From an uncultured Poribacteria bacterium (lineage in GTDB: Bacteria > Poribacteria > WGA-4E > PCPOR2b): DNA of 64,000 bases. Each line of letters begins with the position of its first letter. The stretch's first letter is position 1. Location of the stretch: positions 1,917,940 through 1,981,939 of the forward strand of contig OY282444.1 in assembly GCA_958296125.1 (NCBI GenBank). The letters run 5' to 3'. Shown here piece after piece: positions 42,641-54,485 of the stretch. The notes beneath the pieces are model-generated. The model did not search any database. It was not told where the DNA came from and worked only from the letters and a program-made list of their open reading frames with translations. A program made the position numbers and the translations under genes.

Positions 42641-42657
42641 CCCCTTTAGGAAAGGGG
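42641..42657 (-). terminator. Hairpin across the hsdR stop codon
   Basis: Perfect 7-base arms CCCCTTT and AAAGGGG with a 3-base loop include the hsdR stop codon. A T-rich stretch follows some 25 bases further on the minus strand. It may end the hsd operon or be a small repeat that supplies the last codons of hsdR. Confidence 0.4.
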
Positions 42658-45609
42658 CGGCTGCTCACGATAGGCTTGGTAGAGTTGACGTTTGAGATCC
42701 GCATTGACCTCCGGTTTCGATAATTTCGTATAAAGTTCTAACTTACTATTGACGAAATCCAATAAAATTTCATCAATCACCTGATCAAATTTATACCGCT
42801 TATTAGTATCCGTATTATCCCCCTCGATTACCTGCCGAAGTGCTGCGTTTTCGTGCACCTTTCGGTGAATGGTCTCAATATCAACCTTATCCTCTACCGT
42901 GAAATCTGTCTGATAGGCACTATTCAGAGCCTGAATGATATTGGAGAGGAAATCTTGTTCAGGGTCTCTGATGGTGTGGACATCGCTGCCGATCCCTTCG
43001 ACCTCGCTATCCTGTGTTTCAAGGGGGAGTTGTAGACCGTCATACGTTCTCTGCACACGAAACGAATCCAAGTCCACAGATGCCAAGACATCGTGCAGGT
43101 CGGGGTGATCCCGTTTCGGCAGCTTCTTGTTCAGACTGCGCCCGAAGGTGTACAGCTTTTCCAACGCCACATCGGTGAAGGTAATCAACTGTGAGATGTA
43201 TCCGTAGAGCCGAATGTAACTCTGCAAGGTAGAGCGGAATTTTTCCCTGTTATCCGTTTCGAGGTCTGACCACCTCTCGACGACGCGATCGAGGATGCTC
43301 TGTAGAAGTTCGTCCGGCCGGGTCGGATCATAAAAGATGAGGCAAAATTGGTCAATGGTATCCGCATCGTAGAGGTCAAACCTCTCCAACTGGCTCTGTC
43401 GGTTATACAAGCTGTTCGGGTCGGTCTCCTCCGCGAGTTTCGTGGTCTGATAGTATTGCTGAAACGCTTCCTGCACCTGGTCCGGTTCATTCACAAAGTC
43501 GAGCACCAGTGTATCCGTCTTACCGGTGGCGACGCGGTTCAGGCGGCTTAAACTCTGGACACATTGAAGCCCGCCTAACCGCTTATCGACATACATCGTC
43601 TGCAGCAGCGGCTCATCGAAACCGGTCTGGAACTTGTTCGACACAATCAGAATCCGATAATCAGGACTTTTGAAACTGTCCGCAATCGAAACGCTCGGCG
43701 GTAAGCCGTTCATCCCGTCTTCCGTGTAGGCCCGCCCGTTGTCGGTGTCGTGCAACGTGCTGCTGAACGCCACCAGACAGCCGTAGGGGAGCCCCATCTC
43801 CCGCATTTGTCTGTCGAACTCCAGCTTGTATCTGACACAGTGCCACCGGGACGGCGTAATTAGCATCGCCTGCCCCTTCCCCTCGATCGTCTTTGCGGTC
43901 CGGGCGATGAAGTGTTCTAGGATAATCCGGGTCTTGGTCCCAATACTGTGGGACTGTAGGTCAACGTAGTTGGTCAGCATCCGCAGCGTCCGCGCCTTCT
44001 CGTAAGCTTTATCCTCCGGCACACTCTTGACCAGTTGAAAGTATCTTCTAAAGGTGGTGTAGTTCTGCAGCACGTCCAGTGTAAAACCTTCGCTGATACT
44101 TTGGCGCATCGAATAGATGTGGAACGGGACAAATTTCCCGTCTGCGTCCTTCCGTCCGAACAGTTCCAACGTCTTGTTCTTCGGTGTGCCGCTGAAACCG
44201 AAATAGGAGATATGATCCTGCATTCTGCGCCGTTCCATCTCCTCAAGGATTTTGGTGTCCATATCCGATACTTCGTCGGTGCCCTCGTCGTCTGCCACCC
44301 CTTCCTCGATCCCTTTCGAGAGCGAGGCTCTGAGGCTCCTTGCGGACTCACCGCTCTGCGAGGAGTGCGCTTCGTCGATAATCACGGCGAAGGTCTTGCT
44401 TTTGAGTTTGCCGATTTCCTCAGCAATCACGCTGAATTTCTGAATCGTCGAGATGATGATGTCTTTGCCGGATTCAAGGTATCCCCTGAGTTGTGCCGAA
44501 GTTGCCTCAACGGGATGCACCACGCCTGCGACTTGTGCCGCCTGCTTAATCGTCTCCTGAAGCTGCTTGTCAAGCACGCGCCGGTCAGTCACGACGATGA
44601 CGGAATCGAAGATCCGATTGGTATCTGTCGGAGACCGATACAGATGCGTGAGCAGGTGTGCCAACCACGCGATGGAGTTCGACTTGCCGCTCCCTGTGGT
44701 GTGCTGGATCAGGTAGTTGTGCCCAACCCCTTCCGCTACGAGGGCCCGCTCTAACTGACGGATCACGTCAAGCTGATGGTATCGGGGAAACACGAGCACA
44801 CGGTGTCTCACATCTTTCACCCCGCCGATTCCAGGGTCGTAAACCTTTTCTGTGGTCTCCTGCTCATGGATGAAGTTGTCCATTAACTCCATCAGGTTAT
44901 CGGGCTGTAGGATGTCCTCCCACAGGTAGGCAACCTTGTGACCGTCCGGGTTCACCGGATTTTCGACCTCTTTGTTAAAGGGAAAGAACCGCGTCTCGCC
45001 TCCCTGCAATCGGGTTGTCATCGAAACCTTTTCGACCCCCACCGCAAAGTGAACCAAGCACCGCCGAAATTGGAACAACGGCTCTCTCGGATCTCGATCC
45101 GTCCGATACTGTTTCTCGGCATCTGTCACCGTCTGCCCGGTAAGGCTGTTCTTCAGTTCCATTGTCACTAGGGGTAAGCCGTTGAGGAACAGGGTCATAT
45201 CGATCGATTTTTCGTTCTTCTGTGAATACTTCAACTGCCGAACCAAAGAGAATCGGTTCTGTGCGTAGAGGTGCTGATGGTCGGGGTTCATGCCACTTGA
45301 CGGACGGAAGTAGGTCAGGTCAAAGTAACACCCCCTGTCTTTAACCCCTTTCCGCAGCACGTCTAACACCCCACGCCGCTCAATCTCCTTGCTCACACGG
45401 TTGCGGAGGCTAGTTGGTGTCTTTCCATCATACTGGCGTTCCAGTTTCTGATACTCTGTCGGTTGCGTCTCCTGAATAAATCGTAGCGTCTCATTCGGTA
45501 TCAAACAGAGGTCTTTATCATAGCGGGCAGGCTCTCGGGAGCGGTAGCCGGACCGATTCAGGTGTGCTTCGATGTGCTCCTCAAAATTTTCTTCTTTATA
45601 CGTCGGCAT
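42646..45609 (-). CDS. hsdR: Type I restriction enzyme subunit R (HsdR)
   Basis: Motor and nuclease subunit of a type I restriction-modification complex. The N-terminal PD-(D/E)XK nuclease has Asp137 and Glu151-Leu-Lys153 (TMELKN). Helicase motif I is TTGSGKS at 304-310, motif II IDEAHSSQSGESAR, and motif III FSGTPKNKT. The second RecA domain ends near 700 with VQSLSRLNRVATGKTD, and a helical C-terminal domain follows, making 987 residues. ATG 45609 lies 3 bases after the hsdS stop, with GCGAGGTG as ribosome site inside hsdS. It is the last gene of the operon. Confidence 0.96.
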   Translation of the reverse strand: MPTYKEENFEEHIEAHLNRSGYRSREPARYDKDLCLIPNETLRFIQETQPTEYQKLERQYDGKTPTSLRNRVSKEIERRGVLDVLRKGVKDRGCYFDLTYFRPSSGMNPDHQHLYAQNRFSLVRQLKYSQKNEKSIDMTLFLNGLPLVTMELKNSLTGQTVTDAEKQYRTDRDPREPLFQFRRCLVHFAVGVEKVSMTTRLQGGETRFFPFNKEVENPVNPDGHKVAYLWEDILQPDNLMELMDNFIHEQETTEKVYDPGIGGVKDVRHRVLVFPRYHQLDVIRQLERALVAEGVGHNYLIQHTTGSGKSNSIAWLAHLLTHLYRSPTDTNRIFDSVIVVTDRRVLDKQLQETIKQAAQVAGVVHPVEATSAQLRGYLESGKDIIISTIQKFSVIAEEIGKLKSKTFAVIIDEAHSSQSGESARSLRASLSKGIEEGVADDEGTDEVSDMDTKILEEMERRRMQDHISYFGFSGTPKNKTLELFGRKDADGKFVPFHIYSMRQSISEGFTLDVLQNYTTFRRYFQLVKSVPEDKAYEKARTLRMLTNYVDLQSHSIGTKTRIILEHFIARTAKTIEGKGQAMLITPSRWHCVRYKLEFDRQMREMGLPYGCLVAFSSTLHDTDNGRAYTEDGMNGLPPSVSIADSFKSPDYRILIVSNKFQTGFDEPLLQTMYVDKRLGGLQCVQSLSRLNRVATGKTDTLVLDFVNEPDQVQEAFQQYYQTTKLAEETDPNSLYNRQSQLERFDLYDADTIDQFCLIFYDPTRPDELLQSILDRVVERWSDLETDNREKFRSTLQSYIRLYGYISQLITFTDVALEKLYTFGRSLNKKLPKRDHPDLHDVLASVDLDSFRVQRTYDGLQLPLETQDSEVEGIGSDVHTIRDPEQDFLSNIIQALNSAYQTDFTVEDKVDIETIHRKVHENAALRQVIEGDNTDTNKRYKFDQVIDEILLDFVNSKLELYTKLSKPEVNADLKRQLYQAYREQPPLS

Positions 45610-45612
45610 GGT

Positions 45613-46908
45613 CTACACCTCGCTTCGGACATCTATCTTGCCGGTCACCACTTCGGAGATGAGGGATTGACGGTATTCTTTGAGAAGTTCGACTTTTCGC
45701 TGTTCTGCGGATATCAGTTCGTCAATCTGTTTGGTTTTTTGGTCAAGGAAGTTGCCAATAGCTTTTTGTTCACTCAGTGGTGGAAAAGCCAGTGGTATCT
45801 CTAGTAAATTTGATGGGCTAAGTGAGGAACGGACACCTTTTCCCAAGAAATTGAAAATGTGCTGCTTATACAAATCATAGTATTGATAGAAATAATACCT
45901 TTCGTATGAATCGCTGTTACCTTCAAGTCTGATATAAACGGGACTCATAATACCTTTTTCAGGAACGATACCGACTCGACTCGTTTGAATGTTCTCCAAA
46001 TCAATCAGCTTAAACACAAGATTGTCCGGGTAGAAAACCTGATAAGTCCTATAATCCCCCGGTATAAGTCCCTCAGCTGAGTTCATATCTTTTCTCAGGA
46101 CACCGTTTAAAGTAAGTGAAAGTAGATTGTTACATTGAAAATCAGAGTTTATTTCCTTTTTATGACTTAATATAAACTTACCTCTGACAATCTTCCAGTG
46201 TTTTGGTATCTCTCCAATCCACTCCACGCCCGACGGTTTCATCTCCACATTCGGGTCAAGCCCCTTCGTCACTGACTCATTTATCAGGACAGTTCGTTGT
46301 TCGGCCAGCAGTTCTAGCAATCGTTCTTTGATGCGGATGAGCTCGTCAATCTGGCCTGTCTTGCGGTCGAGGAAGTTGGCGATTTGGGTTTGTTCAGAAT
46401 GTGTAGGATATACAATTGGGATATTACCAACTTCTGACTCATTTATTGATGGAACTGTGCCACCTGCCCTGTAGTGCCTTTTAAAATCAACATTCAACAT
46501 TGCATAATACAAAAATTTATAATTTGATTGATTTGAATATAGTGACATCATGTTGTTGTCTATACATGATCTTTGAGAGAGAATATTCCTCTTGTTCAAT
46601 AGTAGTGCGGCACCTACTTTCGGAAACACGATGCTGTTTGGTTTATGGAGGATAAACTTGAAATCAGAAACTTCCTGCAAAGACACGGTGTTATGGGCAT
46701 ACAGCATCTCGACCTTGTTCTCAGGTGTATTAGTGTCTGCGACTTTGAAGAAAGGAACTTCTAATCCTATCTTACCCTGTAAATCATGTGAGAATCCATT
46801 TCCTGATTTCATTGAACAGAAATACCTTAATTTTTTTACCTCCCAATGTGCCGGTATCTCTCCGATAAACTCAACTCCGCTCTCTTTATATTCAGGATAA
46901 CGTTTCAT
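45613..46908 (-). CDS. hsdS: Type I restriction enzyme specificity subunit (HsdS)
   Basis: DNA-recognition subunit of 431 residues shared by methyltransferase and nuclease complexes. Two halves repeat the same plan: EYKESGVEFIGEIPAHW and GVEWIGEIPKHW open target-recognition domains, and each is followed by a long spacer helix (TQIANFLDRKTGQIDELI, then KAIGNFLDQKTKQIDELI). The recognition domains are visibly richer in A+T than hsdR and hsdM, as expected for fast-exchanging modules. ATG 46908 follows GAGGTT. The gene is unusual in being separated from hsdM by three other genes. Confidence 0.95.
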   Translation of the reverse strand: MKRYPEYKESGVEFIGEIPAHWEVKKLRYFCSMKSGNGFSHDLQGKIGLEVPFFKVADTNTPENKVEMLYAHNTVSLQEVSDFKFILHKPNSIVFPKVGAALLLNKRNILSQRSCIDNNMMSLYSNQSNYKFLYYAMLNVDFKRHYRAGGTVPSINESEVGNIPIVYPTHSEQTQIANFLDRKTGQIDELIRIKERLLELLAEQRTVLINESVTKGLDPNVEMKPSGVEWIGEIPKHWKIVRGKFILSHKKEINSDFQCNNLLSLTLNGVLRKDMNSAEGLIPGDYRTYQVFYPDNLVFKLIDLENIQTSRVGIVPEKGIMSPVYIRLEGNSDSYERYYFYQYYDLYKQHIFNFLGKGVRSSLSPSNLLEIPLAFPPLSEQKAIGNFLDQKTKQIDELISAEQRKVELLKEYRQSLISEVVTGKIDVRSEV

Positions 46909-46934
46909 AACTCTAAACCTCACTCAGTAAACTT

Positions 46935-47020
46935 TCACTGTCTTGTTCAAGCACTAGCAACTCACCGGGGACCACCTTCATTCAGGGAGCACAGCAATGG
47001 ATACTGAACTTGAACAGTGA
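46935..47020. repeat. Imperfect inverted repeat between STAND gene and hsdS
   Basis: TCACTGTCTTGTTCAAG at 46935-46951 pairs, apart from a three-base insertion, with CTTGAACAGTGA at 47009-47020. The enclosed 57 bases have no coding potential. It could be a long-stem RNA structure or a recombination remnant. Confidence 0.4.
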
Positions 47021-47042
47021 TTTTGATTAAAATCGTATCCGG

Positions 47043-50000
47043 CTAGAACTCTCTTTCCTCCTGAATCTTTGCGTATTCAATGGACTCTTCCAACCCATCT
47101 ATAAATTCATCAATCCATCGCTTGACATTCTCATTATCTTCTCCCTCCTTCAGGCGAAGCAGCTGCTGTTGTTTGTCTTTATAGTGCAGGCTACCAGGGC
47201 CCCACCAACCTTCTGTTGAATAATTTGCCCTCAGATTGCTGCGGACATCCTCTCGTTTACCGTAACGAACAAGGACAGCTCGCGCCAGAGAAGTCGGCCA
47301 CTCTTCTGTTAAAAGGGTTTTAGGGACAAGGCGATAGGCAAGATACCACGTCCGGTTTTCTACATCTTTATCAACCCATTCCCAGATTTTTTCCTGCGGA
47401 ATGAGTGTTAGTGCCCCGGCTCCTTCTTCCTCTAGTGAACCATCTTTCAACCAATGTTCTAGCGAAACTGTTCTTGAAACATTCGTTTGGTCCTCTAACA
47501 GTTTGCTAACTTGTTCCCATACCTCCACAGGATACTGCTCTGTAATTTGCTTCAGGAACGAGCCAATATCAAAAACTGACCCTGTGTGACCAAATTGAGA
47601 GAGCATTGGTTCCACTAGTTCTAAACTCTTTTCTGGAAAGTGTTGTAGAAACGCTTCCCCGATTTCTGTCCAATAGTGCTCTGTCATTGTGTCAAATTGA
47701 TATGGATTCAATTGTTCAAACAGGAATGGCTGCGCGAGCAACCGGAATGTCAGGGCACATGGTAAAACGGGCTCCGATTTTTTAAAGACGTAGTAATGGT
47801 AGTAAAGCCCCAATGCAATTAACACAGCGGATGTTTTGCTAGCACTGAGCAGGAACTCAATCCATGCTGTGAATACTTCATCGGATAGACTCTCAATCGC
47901 TTTGCCGTAGACGAAAATTCCGAAGTAATCGGCACCGATGATGTTACTCGTAGCGAGGTTGAGAATACGCCAACCCGCTTGATTTGTTAAGCCAGAACGA
48001 TGTGTGAGCTCTGGAATTGCTACATTGAGTGTGGTATCAGCCACCAGCGCATCAAGTTGTTCTTCCCACAGAGCCTGATCTTTGTCAAAGATTGCACGGA
48101 AATAGCCTCCCAGAAAGTAGACACTTGCATTTTCCCCCGCGTTTCGTTGGGCATCAAGAAGCGTTGGTAGAAGGGTAAATCCATCATCTCTTTTCCCCAG
48201 TTCATACCCAAAGCCGTAACCATTTTGTGCCTCGATTGCGGTCAGCCAGTGCAGTTCGGCTCCCAAAAGGGAAGGTGTGTCAACAGCTTGCTGGGCGAGT
48301 GTTTCAATCCGAGGGTGTGCTTGATCGGTGAATTTCTGGTCTTCGTCGAATTTGTCCTCTAGCAAATTCATCCCAACATACCGTTGCATCATGGAATGAA
48401 AGTCGGAACCAACTAATTCATCCATGAGTTGCTGCCAACGCTGTCGAGTTTTTGAAGGTAGTTCTTTGCCATCATAGTACAGGATTGAATTAATAGTTGC
48501 AATAACCTGCTTTTCACCCACGTACATTTTTTTTCCAATTGTGGCAACCGTGTCCACAACCATATCAGCTAACTTCGGAATCTGTCCTAGCTTACGTGCA
48601 TGTTCAAGCAGAATGGCTACCCCCTCTTGACACTCATCTTCGGGCAGATGTTCTAATTGTCCAACTAGGAGTTGCCATACTTGACGGTAGGCATCCCAAA
48701 TTTCGTCCCATGTTTGGGTCTCCCACAACTTAAGTTCTTTGCGTAATCCTTGATATTCGGCCCCTACAATTCGCCTCCACCTATGCCTTGGCTGCAATCC
48801 AATTTTACAAGCCTCTAATGCTAGCAAGCGTCGGGCCCTTGAGTCAGATTCAAACGCCTCTTTTAAGACAGGAAAACGTTCTGCCGGGGAGGCTGCAGTC
48901 GGTGCTACTCTACCAGGGCCCGGTGAAAAGAGACCCGCGAATACGCCGCTTGCATTGTTTGAACAGCCTTCGTTCTCTGCTTCACCGAGGGCAAGGAGTA
49001 ACCGCGCGGCATCGGCAAACCGATCTCTCCACATGGCAATTTTTTCAAGTGACCATACCACGTTCCTTCGACCCGCTGTGAAGTGCAAAAGGGTTTCTTT
49101 ATCCCAAGTTCCTATTGTTCTCATCAGACATTTTAAGGCAGATTTTGAATCTGCTTCAGTCAGTGCTAAAAAAAAACGGCTACCCAGCCCAGTTTCCAGA
49201 TTTGCATCGTTTTGAAAGGGGCCGTTAGGGCCGAGAAGGTCCTTGACAATTCTTGATGCGGCTTTCGATTCGGCAGCATATCGAAACATTTCATAGAAAC
49301 ACTCAAGTAGTTCCGGTCTTAAGTCTTGTTTAAATTCCTCAAGGTCAAACCCGCTGCCATAAATATCCCACCATTCTGTCCATAGCTTGATATGGAGTAG
49401 TTTTGGCGTGATATACAGTGTAAACTCGCCTTGAAGAATTTTACGGTTTTTCAAATCATTAACGATTTCCTGGAATTCAATCCATTCGATCCCGACTTTT
49501 TGGGCAATAGCTTTGGCTTCCTCCACAACAAATCGCTCGAAACCGAATCGCTTAAAGAGCGCAATGTATCGAAGCACTCGCCGTTTCTCTTTAACTTCTT
49601 GGCTATTTGGATCCGCTCTTCCAACAATATATTGTTTCCAGATATCGACTGTGCTAGGCGGTTTAAGCAAATCCTTTGGATGATTCACCAAGTTCCAGCC
49701 GATAACATGCGCGACCCTTGGTGAACCACCACACAGTTCAACCCATCGGTCAGCGTGGTCGGTGGGTATCCTATATTCCCGAATAATATTGCGAATCTGT
49801 TCGCGCTCTAGTGGTGGGGTATCATAATAGGTAATGCCCCCGGACTCTTCCTCGTAATCATTATAGATGGTAATCAATTTAATCCTCGGACCACGATGCA
49901 GCAGTTTATTCCAGATATAACCCCGGCTATCCGTATCGCACTCATCAATCACCAAAACAACGGAGAAATGGTTGTCATCTCGGAGAAGTTGATTCATTAG

Positions 50001-50816
50001 ATCGCTGTCCCGAAACTGAGATGCCGAGCAGTAAATAACAAGTGGAGATAGATCACAAGGCCTTGTTGCTTCCAAAACGAGTTTTGTCTTACCGATACCG
50101 GGTTCACCTAACACCCGCAAGTGAACCGTGTCATTATCTTGTCGTAATTCGTTTTGAATTCCTGCAATCGAATTGTCCTGCGATTGTCCGCGGATAAATT
50201 GTGTTCGCATATCCTTATCTTGCGACCAACTATTGTGTGTTTGAAACTCCAATCCATCACGTTGGGTTACCCGCAAAGACAGCGATGGAAATGAATCCAG
50301 AAAACTGATTAGATTATTCTGACTCCACACCTCAACTTTGGGCTGCCGATAACCACACTGCTTTAAGTAATTCTTAATATGATTGAGGGCATCTATATGT
50401 TGCGGCTCAACAAGGTCAATTCCAGTGCAAACGAGAACGTAAGTTCCACCGACATCAAGGCAAGCACGAATACTCCCACCAAGATTCTGTTTATTTAGTG
50501 GTGTTCTTTCACCGAAGAGTTCCTTCCGAATTTCTGATTTCTGCCACGGACTAAAACTTTGCCCCGATTTAATCTGGTAACTAGTTTTACCAGGCTTAAT
50601 TATTCCGGCTCCCGTTGTAATTTGAGCTTCATTAACGGTAGCATCAACTCCGCCATCTGGGGTATTGATGTCGCTTGACACATTAATTTTGCTAGTTTCG
50701 ATTCCAATTCTCCGCGCTTCCGCCCACAGCAATTGCTGAAAGAAGTCAACTGCTGTCCGTTCATCAAGCCGGTCAAGATGTTCATTTTTGACGGTAAAAA
50801 TAGTTTGGTCATTCAC
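47043..50816 (-). CDS. PD-(D/E)XK-like nuclease fused to STAND-like NTPase with helical C-terminus, putative defence protein
   Basis: A 1257-residue soluble protein I cannot place in a named family. Residues 1-190 look like a restriction-endonuclease fold, with Glu33, Asp58 (PDGGVDA) and Gln81-Ile-Lys83 (YQIKSG) as candidate catalytic set. The NTPase has Walker A GEPGIGKT at 237-244 and Walker B VVLVIDE at 286-292. From about 420 to the end the sequence is helical and rich in Trp and acidic residues, as in sensor regions. The layout resembles Avs-type antiviral STAND proteins, in which the C-terminus detects a phage protein and the nuclease then attacks DNA; this is inference. ATG 50816 follows GGAG. 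It lies inside the hsd operon. Confidence 0.75.
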   Translation of the reverse strand: MNDQTIFTVKNEHLDRLDERTAVDFFQQLLWAEARRIGIETSKINVSSDINTPDGGVDATVNEAQITTGAGIIKPGKTSYQIKSGQSFSPWQKSEIRKELFGERTPLNKQNLGGSIRACLDVGGTYVLVCTGIDLVEPQHIDALNHIKNYLKQCGYRQPKVEVWSQNNLISFLDSFPSLSLRVTQRDGLEFQTHNSWSQDKDMRTQFIRGQSQDNSIAGIQNELRQDNDTVHLRVLGEPGIGKTKLVLEATRPCDLSPLVIYCSASQFRDSDLMNQLLRDDNHFSVVLVIDECDTDSRGYIWNKLLHRGPRIKLITIYNDYEEESGGITYYDTPPLEREQIRNIIREYRIPTDHADRWVELCGGSPRVAHVIGWNLVNHPKDLLKPPSTVDIWKQYIVGRADPNSQEVKEKRRVLRYIALFKRFGFERFVVEEAKAIAQKVGIEWIEFQEIVNDLKNRKILQGEFTLYITPKLLHIKLWTEWWDIYGSGFDLEEFKQDLRPELLECFYEMFRYAAESKAASRIVKDLLGPNGPFQNDANLETGLGSRFFLALTEADSKSALKCLMRTIGTWDKETLLHFTAGRRNVVWSLEKIAMWRDRFADAARLLLALGEAENEGCSNNASGVFAGLFSPGPGRVAPTAASPAERFPVLKEAFESDSRARRLLALEACKIGLQPRHRWRRIVGAEYQGLRKELKLWETQTWDEIWDAYRQVWQLLVGQLEHLPEDECQEGVAILLEHARKLGQIPKLADMVVDTVATIGKKMYVGEKQVIATINSILYYDGKELPSKTRQRWQQLMDELVGSDFHSMMQRYVGMNLLEDKFDEDQKFTDQAHPRIETLAQQAVDTPSLLGAELHWLTAIEAQNGYGFGYELGKRDDGFTLLPTLLDAQRNAGENASVYFLGGYFRAIFDKDQALWEEQLDALVADTTLNVAIPELTHRSGLTNQAGWRILNLATSNIIGADYFGIFVYGKAIESLSDEVFTAWIEFLLSASKTSAVLIALGLYYHYYVFKKSEPVLPCALTFRLLAQPFLFEQLNPYQFDTMTEHYWTEIGEAFLQHFPEKSLELVEPMLSQFGHTGSVFDIGSFLKQITEQYPVEVWEQVSKLLEDQTNVSRTVSLEHWLKDGSLEEEGAGALTLIPQEKIWEWVDKDVENRTWYLAYRLVPKTLLTEEWPTSLARAVLVRYGKREDVRSNLRANYSTEGWWGPGSLHYKDKQQQLLRLKEGEDNENVKRWIDEFIDGLEESIEYAKIQEEREF

Positions 50817-50848
50817 TGCCTATCTCCAATTGATTAACGCTTACAGCC

Positions 50849-50887
50849 CCGGACTTCTCTAATCCACTCCACATCGCTATCTTTATA
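50849..50887 (-). pseudogene. Remnant of an hsdS N-terminus
   Basis: Directly after the PIN stop codon the same frame reads YKDSDVEWIREVR, then stops at 50834-50836. This matches the start of HsdS here (YKESGVEFIGEIP), and the DNA stretch GTGGAGTGGATTAGAGA differs at one base from the second recognition-domain start in hsdS. It has no start codon of its own. It appears to mark where an original hsdS was cut or partly duplicated. Confidence 0.6.
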
Positions 50888-51382
50888 TCAAGTGCTCCCG
50901 CGCAACCGTTGAATATCATCCTCACAAATAAACTCCACTGTCACACCTTTTTCACGGAGCACATCGCGGAAATCCCACCACTGACTATCTACTGCCTGTA
51001 AGATGGGCGGTTTCTCTGGATGGGCACATGCAACCGCGATAAATTTCCGATCATCCGGATCGAAGTCAGCCAGTGCCGGATCGTCTGGAAACTCTTCAAA
51101 CTCATTTTCTAAACCCTTGACAGGTGTAATCGGAACCAAATCGCAGTGGTTATCCTTGTTCACCAGGATCCATCCAAGAAACCTATCACCAACATCGGCA
51201 CCATTAGATCGGAGATTTTGCATGTACTCCCTGAGAATTATCCATCTATTATCAAGAACCAATTTCACCTCGCCGCTCATAATTTTCTCAAGCTTCTCTC
51301 CACAGGTTTCCACGCAATCGGAGGAGGCTTGTTCTGACCGTCCGTTGGCTACCACTATGACATTTGTGTCTACAACAACCAT
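50888..51382 (-). CDS. PIN-domain ribonuclease-like protein paired with AAA ATPase
   Basis: A 164-residue PIN-like protein. It begins VVVDTNVIV; acidic residues Asp5, Glu52 (LREY), Asp111 (DDRKFIAVACAH) and Asp132 (AVDSQWWDF) are spaced as in PIN nucleases. ATG 51382 overlaps the ATPase stop in a TGATG junction, implying coupled translation and a fixed ratio. PIN toxins usually cut RNA and pair with a small antitoxin; here the partner is a large ATPase, so the ATPase may restrain or trigger it (inference). No independent promoter is visible. Confidence 0.8.
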   Translation of the reverse strand: MVVVDTNVIVVANGRSEQASSDCVETCGEKLEKIMSGEVKLVLDNRWIILREYMQNLRSNGADVGDRFLGWILVNKDNHCDLVPITPVKGLENEFEEFPDDPALADFDPDDRKFIAVACAHPEKPPILQAVDSQWWDFRDVLREKGVTVEFICEDDIQRLRGST

Positions 51383-52674
51383 CAGCCTATCACTTTCCGC
51401 CGCTGCATCTCAGCTTTAGTCTTTTTAATTAACTCGCCTGTACTATCGCCAAAGAAGTCTTGAGGCCAATTCCGAATGTTGCCGTATTCATCCATGTTGA
51501 GGCGTTCAATTTCGGATGTGCCGTTATTGATGTGGCAGAAATAGAGTGCTGTGTCATTCATCGAAATCTTCTCCTCGGCAATCCGACGCATCAAGCGTAG
51601 CAGTAGGTGCTCGCTGTGACTCTCAAGAATAATCTGTATGTTCCGATTTTTCACGACATCAATCAGAACATCCGCTAACTCTGATTGCGCTTTCGGATGC
51701 AGGTGTGCCTCCGGTTGTTCAAGGACGAGGATTGAGCCTTCATCAGCATAATAACAGAGGATTAGCACCGGCAGAATCTGGGAAACGCCGAAGCCAACGT
51801 CTGTGAGTCCGACTTCGGTCCCACCTTTGTACTGTTTGACGAGGAATTCGTAATACTGATCTGTATTAGAGGTAGGGTTAAGAGTATAGGAATCTATCAG
51901 TTCCAGCCTCTGTAACCATTTCATGATCTGCTCGTCAGTGGAACGGAATTTAACTCGGCTTGAAAGCAATGCGGAAATCATCTTCTCTCCATACTGCCCG
52001 ATATCTTTTGGATGGCTCTCCCCCCAAGTATAATCGTGTCGAGGATCATCCCGTCGCGGACCAAGGTAGTGGATTCGAGAAAATCGGTTTTCAAAAGCTT
52101 CCTGAAGCTGCAAAAAAGGCTCCCAAAGTCCAGCTCGGTTAACGACCCCATAGCATCGAAACGGATCCACGCTTATATTAACAGGGGAGGTCATGTATCC
52201 TCTAGGTTTGACTATGTACCCTTTAGGTGTGATTGGGTTCTCTTGTGAGGTCCAACTGACCCAAAAGTTGTATCCATCAACTGTTGTATAATGAAAATCT
52301 CTCAACTCCGATTGCTCAACATTTTTAATAATGGTTGTTGAGAAGGAGAGCGAATTGGTTGAGTAATCTCCAATGTTTCTGTGTTCAGGTAGTTTCCACG
52401 AAACAGAAATACCTAAAGTAAAAGTCGGATTGTGTCGGTTGATAACAGTATTGAAATTGCCTAAATTGACAAGCGATCCCTCACTGCCGAAGTAGAGTGG
52501 CTCATTCCAATCCGGTGATGGATGCTCTGCGGTCTGCTTGAGCAGAAGCAGCACCTGCAAGATACTGGTTTTGCCGGAGTTATTCGCGCCGAAAAGTCCA
52601 GTTAATGGGGCGAGCTGTAGTTTGCCTGTATCTTGCCATGACTTGAAATTTTGCGCGCTGAGTTCAGTAATCAT
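51382..52674 (-). CDS. AAA family ATPase (DUF3696/OLD-like ABC-type fold)
   Basis: A 430-residue ABC-ATPase-like protein. Walker A is GANNSGKTS at 29-37. The signature region is GLTDVGFGVSQILPVL, Walker B with a glutamine-proline-glutamate loop is ILVLEQPEAHLHP, and the H-loop is ILESHSEHLLLRLMRRI; these are typical of DUF3696/COG4938-type ATPases related to OLD. The C-terminal GNIRNWPQDFFGD is also family-like. ATG 52674 follows GAAGGGA. It sits directly behind hsdM and is fused by stop-start overlap to the PIN gene, so the two are a module. Relatives occur in defence islands; the exact role is unknown. Confidence 0.87.
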   Translation of the reverse strand: MITELSAQNFKSWQDTGKLQLAPLTGLFGANNSGKTSILQVLLLLKQTAEHPSPDWNEPLYFGSEGSLVNLGNFNTVINRHNPTFTLGISVSWKLPEHRNIGDYSTNSLSFSTTIIKNVEQSELRDFHYTTVDGYNFWVSWTSQENPITPKGYIVKPRGYMTSPVNISVDPFRCYGVVNRAGLWEPFLQLQEAFENRFSRIHYLGPRRDDPRHDYTWGESHPKDIGQYGEKMISALLSSRVKFRSTDEQIMKWLQRLELIDSYTLNPTSNTDQYYEFLVKQYKGGTEVGLTDVGFGVSQILPVLILCYYADEGSILVLEQPEAHLHPKAQSELADVLIDVVKNRNIQIILESHSEHLLLRLMRRIAEEKISMNDTALYFCHINNGTSEIERLNMDEYGNIRNWPQDFFGDSTGELIKKTKAEMQRRKVIG

Positions 52675-52704
52675 AACTTATCCCTTCTTTTATAAACAGA
52701 GTGA

Positions 52705-52732
52705 GTAGGGAACGCAGATCTGCGTCCCCTAC
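52705..52732. repeat. 28-base palindrome between hsdM and the ATPase gene
   Basis: GTAGGGAACGCAGA and TCTGCGTCCCCTAC form a palindrome with one mismatch and no loop. It has the same length and outer eight bases as the element at 33766-33793. It is located at the junction where the accessory genes begin. Confidence 0.6.
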
Positions 52733-52757
52733 AATTTGAAATGTGTAAATCCTTATC

Positions 52758-54485
52758 TCATAACCCCAAAAGCTCTTTCAGCAAGCCTTCACTTTTCCGT
52801 TCAAGTGTTAGTATTTCATCGGCAATCTCCTTCAGCGAGCGCAGCGGCGTGTGCTGGTAGAAATATCGATTGAAGTTAATCTCGTAGCCCACCTTATCCT
52901 TCTTCCTGTCTAGCCAACTGTCCGGTAGGTGTGGTTTGATCTCCCGTTGGTAGTAATCATCAATCTTCTCCGTGAGAGGGACACGCTCAGAGTCTCGCAG
53001 CGCAGGGTCCGGTTTCGGATTCCCCCGCTTGTCCCGGAGGATGTCTCCCGTTTCAGCGTCGATCAGCTGCCTCTCAACCGTCACTTTCGTGTAGCCGAAA
53101 AAGTCGTTTGGATAGATTTTACAGTGTTCGGTCTCTTCAAAGTTGGTATAGGTTTCCACCAGTTGACGGATATAGCTATCGGAGATGAAAACCCCCTTGT
53201 CTCCGAGATTCCTTTTCATCTTATCGAAGTATTCAACGGCGTTGATCAGTTGTATCTTACCCTGTCGTGCTTCCGATTTTCGATTCGTCAAGATCCAGAT
53301 ATAGGTGGAGATACTGGTGTTAAAGAACAACTTATCGGGCAGCGCGAGAACACACTCCAGCCAATCTTTTTCGATAATCCAGCGTCGGATTTCACTTTCA
53401 CCGCTGCCGGCATCCCCCGTAAAGAGCGGCGACCCGTTAAAGACGATTCCAACCCGACTGCCGCGTTTCTCCATCTTGGAGAGCATGTGTTGTAGAAACA
53501 GCAACGCCCCATCGGAGGAGCGAGGGGTACCAGCTGAGAATCTGCTATTGGCGTTCTGCGCTTCTGTTTTCACCGCCCCTGCATCAGACTTCCAACTGAC
53601 ACCAAAGGGCGGATTTGTTATCATATAATCGAATCGGCCTTCTTGGAATTGGTCCTCAGAGAGGCAGGAGCCGAGTCGAATACTATCGGGGTTCTCTCCG
53701 GTAATAAGCATATCCGACTTGCAGATTGCGTGGGTCTGCGCGTTCAGTTCCTGCCCCAACAGTCGGATATCGGCATCCGGATTAATCTGTTCACGAAAGT
53801 ATTCCTTCCCAATGGTTAACATGCCGCCTGTCCCGCAACACGGATCAAAGATACTGCGTATAACCCCCTGCCCGCGTAGATCTTCACGGTGTTCCGCAAA
53901 CAGCAGCGAGACCAATAACCGCACGATATCCCGCGGCGTGTAATGTTCTCCGCTGGTTTCGTTGGACATCTCTGAGAATCGGCGGAGCAGCTCCTCAAAC
54001 ACCTGTCCCATTGTGTGGTTGTCCACCTTATCCGGGTGAAGGTCGACTTCGGTGAATTTATCGCAGAAGATGAACAGCCGATTGTTTTTATGCAGCCGTT
54101 CGATAAACCCATCAAGATTGAAGTTTTCGATGATGTCGCGCACATCCTTACTGAATCCGTTGAGGTAGTTCTCAAAGTTGAGGTGGATGTTGTTCGGGTC
54201 CTTTTTCAGTCGAGATAGGTCGTACTGGGAGATGTTGTAGAAATTGGTGTTTATCTCTTTCAGAATAATCGGCGGCAGCAAGTCCTCGGACACTTTGCCA
54301 TTATACTGATTGCAGGTATTAATGGCTTTCTCTTTTCGGCCGTCTTCATCTAGGATGCAGTCCAACCGGCGCAGCACCAGAAACGGGAGGGTGATGTCGC
54401 CGTATTCGTGCGGTTTGAACAGGCCCCGCAGCACATCGTCCGCCACATCCCAAACCAGATTTGCGAGTTCTCGATAGTTTGCCAT
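52758..54485 (-). CDS. hsdM: Type I restriction-modification methyltransferase subunit (HsdM)
   Basis: Adenine-N6 DNA methyltransferase subunit of 575 residues. An N-terminal helical domain (about 1-150) joins the catalytic domain with the SAM motif FDPCCGTGGM at 213-222 and the target-adenine motif NPPF at 291-294. A C-terminal tail follows with RESPLTEKIDDYYQ-like HsdM features (ERVPLTEKIDDYYQ). It is the first gene of the minus-strand defence operon. SD sequence GGAGAC lies before ATG 54485. The methyltransferase would act with HsdS made from the same transcript. Confidence 0.96.
   Translation of the reverse strand: MANYRELANLVWDVADDVLRGLFKPHEYGDITLPFLVLRRLDCILDEDGRKEKAINTCNQYNGKVSEDLLPPIILKEINTNFYNISQYDLSRLKKDPNNIHLNFENYLNGFSKDVRDIIENFNLDGFIERLHKNNRLFIFCDKFTEVDLHPDKVDNHTMGQVFEELLRRFSEMSNETSGEHYTPRDIVRLLVSLLFAEHREDLRGQGVIRSIFDPCCGTGGMLTIGKEYFREQINPDADIRLLGQELNAQTHAICKSDMLITGENPDSIRLGSCLSEDQFQEGRFDYMITNPPFGVSWKSDAGAVKTEAQNANSRFSAGTPRSSDGALLFLQHMLSKMEKRGSRVGIVFNGSPLFTGDAGSGESEIRRWIIEKDWLECVLALPDKLFFNTSISTYIWILTNRKSEARQGKIQLINAVEYFDKMKRNLGDKGVFISDSYIRQLVETYTNFEETEHCKIYPNDFFGYTKVTVERQLIDAETGDILRDKRGNPKPDPALRDSERVPLTEKIDDYYQREIKPHLPDSWLDRKKDKVGYEINFNRYFYQHTPLRSLKEIADEILTLERKSEGLLKELLGL

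Follow-up and report, generated by a model that had tools for sequence, protein, structure and literature searches.

The window analysed here, a 64,000-nucleotide stretch of a genome from an uncultured Poribacteria bacterium, contains a large gene (47043..50816) that encodes a protein with a predicted nuclease domain, a STAND-like NTPase and an alpha-solenoid. The initial annotation had placed an open reading frame at these positions and had given no strand. We found it on the minus strand, running from a GTG start codon at 50816 to a stop at 47043 and encoding 1,257 residues, and the plus-strand frame of the same interval is broken by many stops. The sequence GGAG lies approximately 8 bases 5' of the GTG, and in the alignment the near homologues begin at the same residue as this protein. 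Comparison of the gene with its two nearest homologues gave dN/dS ratios of approximately 0.24–0.30, which indicates that it is under purifying selection. Scans for promoters and terminators returned no more matches than in shuffled sequence, and no tRNA that could mark an integration site was found in the window.

The gene is embedded in a complete type I restriction operon (42646–54485), also on the minus strand. The first gene, hsdM (52758..54485), encodes the methyltransferase, identified by Pfam matches to N6_Mtase (4.6e-62) and HsdM_N and by an NPPF motif. It is followed in the same direction by a gene for an HEC-03B-like AAA ATPase with a DUF3696 C-terminus (51382..52674; PADLOC HEC-03B, 7.3e-111), a gene for a small, PIN-like protein resembling HEC-03A (50888..51382; PADLOC HEC-03A, 1.7e-26, with a weak PIN_3 match), the nuclease–STAND gene, hsdS for the specificity subunit (45613..46923; Pfam Methylase_S and PADLOC Specificity_I, 8.4e-101) and hsdR for the restriction subunit (42646..45609; HSDR_N and SWI2_SNF2 matches, with GSGKS, DEAH and ELK motifs). 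The HEC-03 gene pair and the nuclease–STAND gene, two embedded defence modules, lie between hsdM and hsdS, and the gaps along the run from hsdM to hsdR measure 83, −1, 71, 119 and 3 bases. The operon is bordered by an enolase-superfamily gene at one end and by SRAP and amidase genes at the other, and a genome of the same genus (L022) has identical flanks.

The N-terminal region of the protein (residues 1–200; 50217..50816, minus strand) carries a nearly invariant E33 followed by D54-G-G-x-D58 and Q81-x-K83, and it thereby shows the DGGxD...QxK signature that characterises Mrr-type PD-(D/E)XK nucleases. We aligned 22 full-length homologues (18–72% identity) drawn from Poribacteria-like genomes, cyanobacteria, haloarchaea, alpha-, beta- and gamma-proteobacteria and Leptospira, and found that D54, G56, D58, Q81, K83 and E99 in the N-terminus, together with G237, G240, G242, K243, T244, D291 and C293 in the NTPase, were invariant in all of them. 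Given this conservation, the residues singled out in the initial annotation, which were numbered correctly (Asp58, Gln81-Ile-Lys83, Walker A at 237–244 and Walker B at 286–292), cannot be put down to chance.

Mrr_cat gave no match to the protein itself by hmmscan. Compared profile to profile with 25 Mrr_cat domains taken from genomes of relatives, the N-terminus scored 24.2 over 121 columns (E 0.005, a modest value from a single comparison), against at most 17.4 for 30 column-shuffled versions and at most 16.8 for four other protein segments. In a first comparison with Mrr_cat, over 64 columns, D58 fell on the DGGxD of Mrr and Q81-x-K83 on its QxK. The structure predictions, for which AlphaFold was given few sequences, were of low confidence (pLDDT 45 and 62), and we treated fold matches as hints; the case for a nuclease fold thus rests on the motif and profile evidence. 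In the model, the pLDDT of the nuclease region was mostly 25–50 and no endonuclease was among the Foldseek matches listed, and a predicted helix (19–36) and two strands (58–62 and 78–81) occur in an order that fits such a nuclease. The motif and profile data support the prediction that residues 1–200 form an Mrr-like PD-(D/E)XK nuclease domain. Proteins of the Mrr family (PF04471) lack the NTPase and solenoid found here. Cap4-type nucleases, for which we searched separately, were few in the phylum.

Residues 201–480 (49377..50216, minus strand) are predicted to form a STAND-like NTPase with a winged-helix-like region, as suggested by the invariant Walker residues and by weak family and fold matches. 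The motifs occur in the order GEPGIGKT (237–244; Walker A), VVLVIDE (286–292; Walker B) and GSP (364–366), the last of which resembles the STAND GxP motif and is partly conserved in distant members. For this protein, no Pfam STAND or NB-ARC model matched above its cut-off, the best being AAA_16 at 15.5 bits versus a threshold of 32.6, and searches of Pfam, NCBIfam and PDB sequences returned nothing significant; matches to the DCLK1 kinase in the sequence search were attributed to chance. Other members of the family gave weak matches to NB-ARC, nSTAND5 and AAA_16, the family profile weakly matched the plant receptors NRC1, NRC3 and ADR1, and Foldseek weakly matched the NTPase region to clamp loaders, EfAvs5 (E=0.05), NRC2 and Sr35.

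The remainder of the protein (residues 481–1257; 47046..49376, minus strand) is modelled as an alpha-solenoid and is presumed to be a sensor. The model is all-helical over residues 480–1257 (mean pLDDT 61.6), in agreement with the more than 800 residues of helical sequence that had been noted at the outset. Foldseek matched this region to HEAT-type proteins, for example Kap121, the SF3B1-containing U2 snRNP, CAND1 and PP2A, a likeness that in a predicted model is general and uninformative as to ligand. The initial annotation could match the sensor region to no known family; this holds for Pfam, NCBIfam and PDB sequences, but a PADLOC family profile covers most of the region.

That profile, PD-Lambda-4_A, matched residues 5–1000 of the protein to its positions 2–1021 of 1,283 (E=1.4e-23). 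It is also matched by proteins of Enterobacter, Legionella, Leptospira, Thalassobaculum, Pseudanabaena and haloarchaea, and the E. coli protein scores 2525 bits against it. Intermediate homologues connect the protein described here with PD-λ-4 A of E. coli (L053), whose sequence shares the invariant columns of the P-loop and the N-terminal motif. The two proteins are similar in length (1,283 versus 1,257 residues), have the same domain order, align over their full length and have in common DGxD/QxK, Walker A and D291/C293. They differ in that identity is only 18% and in that they belong to different clades: in a tree of the 22 members, the window protein groups with Pseudanabaena and haloarchaeal sequences, separate from the E. 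coli-type clade. A further difference is that PD-Lambda-4_B follows the E. coli copy and is included in the PADLOC definition of the system, whereas it is missing here; a search that recovered it from the E. coli control found none in the bacterium's own genome or in 29 relatives. On the strength of the open reading frame, the profile match and the 22-member alignment, we regard the protein as a distant, full-length, stand-alone member of the PD-Lambda-4_A family.

PD-λ-4, a validated anti-λ system, was one of 21 that emerged from a functional selection in E. coli and were then shown to lower plaquing (PMC9519451); within the family, the reported anti-phage activity is that of the E. coli system. 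A 2023 survey places it under P-loop NTPase rather than PD-(D/E)XK (PMC10952713), and a figure in the original paper may already show the nuclease. The initial annotation had proposed an Avs-like or new protein. The family is not new, given that PADLOC already holds it, although its domain plan was poorly recognised before. Our analysis links PD-λ-4, a functionally selected system with a little-known mechanism, to a predicted domain plan in which a STAND receptor drives an Mrr-like nuclease.

Homologues are spread well beyond the immediate relatives. Searches of 59 genomes (the bacterium's own and 58 relatives) found matches in 17, and 14 genomes besides its own contain a full-length homologue with 59–72% identity; in one (G012), the gene is split over two contigs and has an internal stop. 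Near homologues also occur on two contigs named Candidatus Poribacteria, which places the window in or near this group. A tblastn search against plasmids returned 32 records, 12 of which cover at least 80% of the protein at 21–39% identity. These plasmid homologues include sequences from Pseudanabaena, Haloarcula, Halorubrum, Haloglomus, Thalassobaculum and Rhizobium, with shorter matches in Legionella, Leptospira, Burkholderia, Enterobacter and others, and the majority are similar in length and carry the annotation of hypothetical protein. At the DNA level, the Enterobacter gene was matched in 173 of 5,426 E. coli genomes. No match to the window protein was found in a phage collection of 50,697 records. 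The family is mostly a single-gene cassette found in bacteria and haloarchaea.

The neighbourhoods of these homologues vary. Two genomes of the same genus (L002 and L022) show the same gene order between HEC-03B and hsdR; one of them also has hsdM, and the contig of the other begins at HEC-03B. In a third genome of the genus, hsdS and hsdR are present without the nuclease–STAND gene, but the contig breaks off just upstream, and in a fourth only fragments of HEC-03B and hsdR are left. In three more distant genomes, an Eco57I-type methylase gene lies directly upstream of the homologue. In another (G038), the sole match is a fragment corresponding to the last 36 residues of the gene, and these residues are fused in frame to a truncated open reading frame with methylase motif I (DFACGTGTLL; L037, 6677–7867), an apparent deletion remnant. 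Elsewhere, the homologue stands alone between genes for BatA-like and CARDB proteins in four genomes (L024, L026, L033 and L034), with only the CARDB flank seen in a fifth (L023), whereas in six genomes (L105, L106, L107, L109, L110 and L111) this site is empty and the BatA-like and CARDB genes are no more than about 300 bases apart. The occurrence of both occupied and empty sites indicates that the gene is gained or lost as one unit. Restriction genes are often in its vicinity, yet the gene does not depend on them, and on the basis of these neighbourhoods we rejected HEC-03, HsdRMS or PD-Lambda-4_B as an obligate partner in general.

Homology to PD-λ-4 A and genomic location support a role in defence, as far as sequence can indicate. 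The overall plan put forward in the initial annotation, a nuclease joined to a STAND-like NTPase and a helical sensor, gains support from the invariant motifs and the Mrr_cat profile at the N-terminus, the weak STAND-type matches and the helical model of the solenoid, and it is on these grounds that we predict an Mrr-like nuclease coupled to a STAND receptor. In having an N-terminal nuclease, a central STAND NTPase and a C-terminal sensor in one large protein, it resembles Avs1–Avs4, the nuclease-bearing STAND proteins that respond to a phage terminase, portal or other phage protein by cleaving both phage and host DNA (PMC12931631). The comparison with Avs is therefore fair as an analogy of mechanism, but membership in a known Avs type (AVAST types 1–5) is not supported by sequence: at E≤0.1 the protein matched only PD-Lambda-4_A in PADLOC and no Avs profile, provided that the library holds Avs models, and no chain of an Avs structure was matched by phmmer or profile search.

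Considering the defence neighbourhood, the PD-λ-4 A homology, the presence or absence of the gene as a single unit and its occurrence on plasmids of many phyla, we think that this member of the PD-Lambda-4_A family probably functions as a single-protein immune receptor against phage, one that senses a phage product, assembles in an ATP-driven manner and cuts DNA. By analogy with Avs, we infer sensing by the solenoid, ATP-dependent assembly, DNA cleavage and an abortive outcome. In the resting cell the nuclease would be kept off; binding of a phage product to the solenoid would allow ATP-bound protomers to assemble and bring their nuclease domains together, and the assembled nuclease would cut DNA and stop the infection, probably at the cell's cost. 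The receptor would act alone, so that the adjacent restriction subunits and HEC-03 proteins would be dispensable. If this is correct, the family belongs among the NLR-like immune receptors of bacteria, and D58, K83, K243 and D291, its catalytic and switch residues, are open to direct testing in the protein of E. coli.

Mrr is the nearest nuclease family by motif, and the Mrr family includes type IV enzymes. With restriction genes as neighbours and solenoids being able to bind nucleic acid, one could envisage a type IV-like restriction enzyme in which the NTPase and solenoid read DNA or a DNA-bound structure directly; cleavage of modified or foreign DNA by the Mrr-like domain would then require no phage protein to be sensed. 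We consider this unlikely: domain searches for a DNA-recognition domain found none, and receptors that sense a ligand are built in this way, from a STAND-type NTPase and a repeat sensor C-terminal to it (PMC12931631). Embedding of the gene in the same direction within the hsd operon, seen in three same-genus genomes, suggests a different scheme, in which the type I complex holds the protein silent until phage inhibition of restriction releases it to kill the cell as a second line of defence. There is a precedent in prrC, which lies within a type I restriction–modification operon (EcoprrI) and encodes an effector that the complex sequesters until T4 infects the cell and it is set free (PMC3874165); PrrC combines an anticodon nuclease with an ABC-type ATPase and has no detected sequence relation to the protein described here. 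The Eco57I-type methylase genes upstream of three homologues and the methylase-like fusion in a fourth genome point the same way. However, restriction genes are not the immediate neighbours of most homologues, at least four genomes have the gene by itself at the site between BatA-like and CARDB genes, and the protein has its own large predicted sensor. We therefore give such a guard role a low probability; a PrrC-like dependence on the restriction enzyme is possible, but not as the general rule of the family. Similarly doubtful is a coupling of this STAND nuclease receptor to the type I enzyme in whose operon it is encoded, whereby, as with PrrC, the phage event sensed would be inhibition or failure of restriction, and restriction and abortive DNA cleavage would form a two-stage defence. 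Finally, a composite system requiring both HEC-03 genes and the nuclease–STAND gene is very improbable, since the three genes are adjacent in the window, L002 and L022 but HEC-03 is not beside the gene in the other Poribacteria-like loci or any plasmid locus examined, and one genome (G005) retains HEC-03B remnants where no copy of the nuclease–STAND gene was found.

Minor observations concern individual copies and loci. In a same-genus genome, decayed fragments of HEC-03B are present at L070 (7798–8914), where the restriction island appears to have been lost. Copies on viral contigs are of the E. coli type only, and one of these, in an IMG/VR viral contig (L057, 6001–8010), has an in-frame stop in the part translated. 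The Haloarcula marina homologue (L039, 4989–8766) is annotated as two overlapping open reading frames, an ATP-binding protein and a hypothetical protein, which reflects either a frameshift or a protein that is genuinely divided in two.
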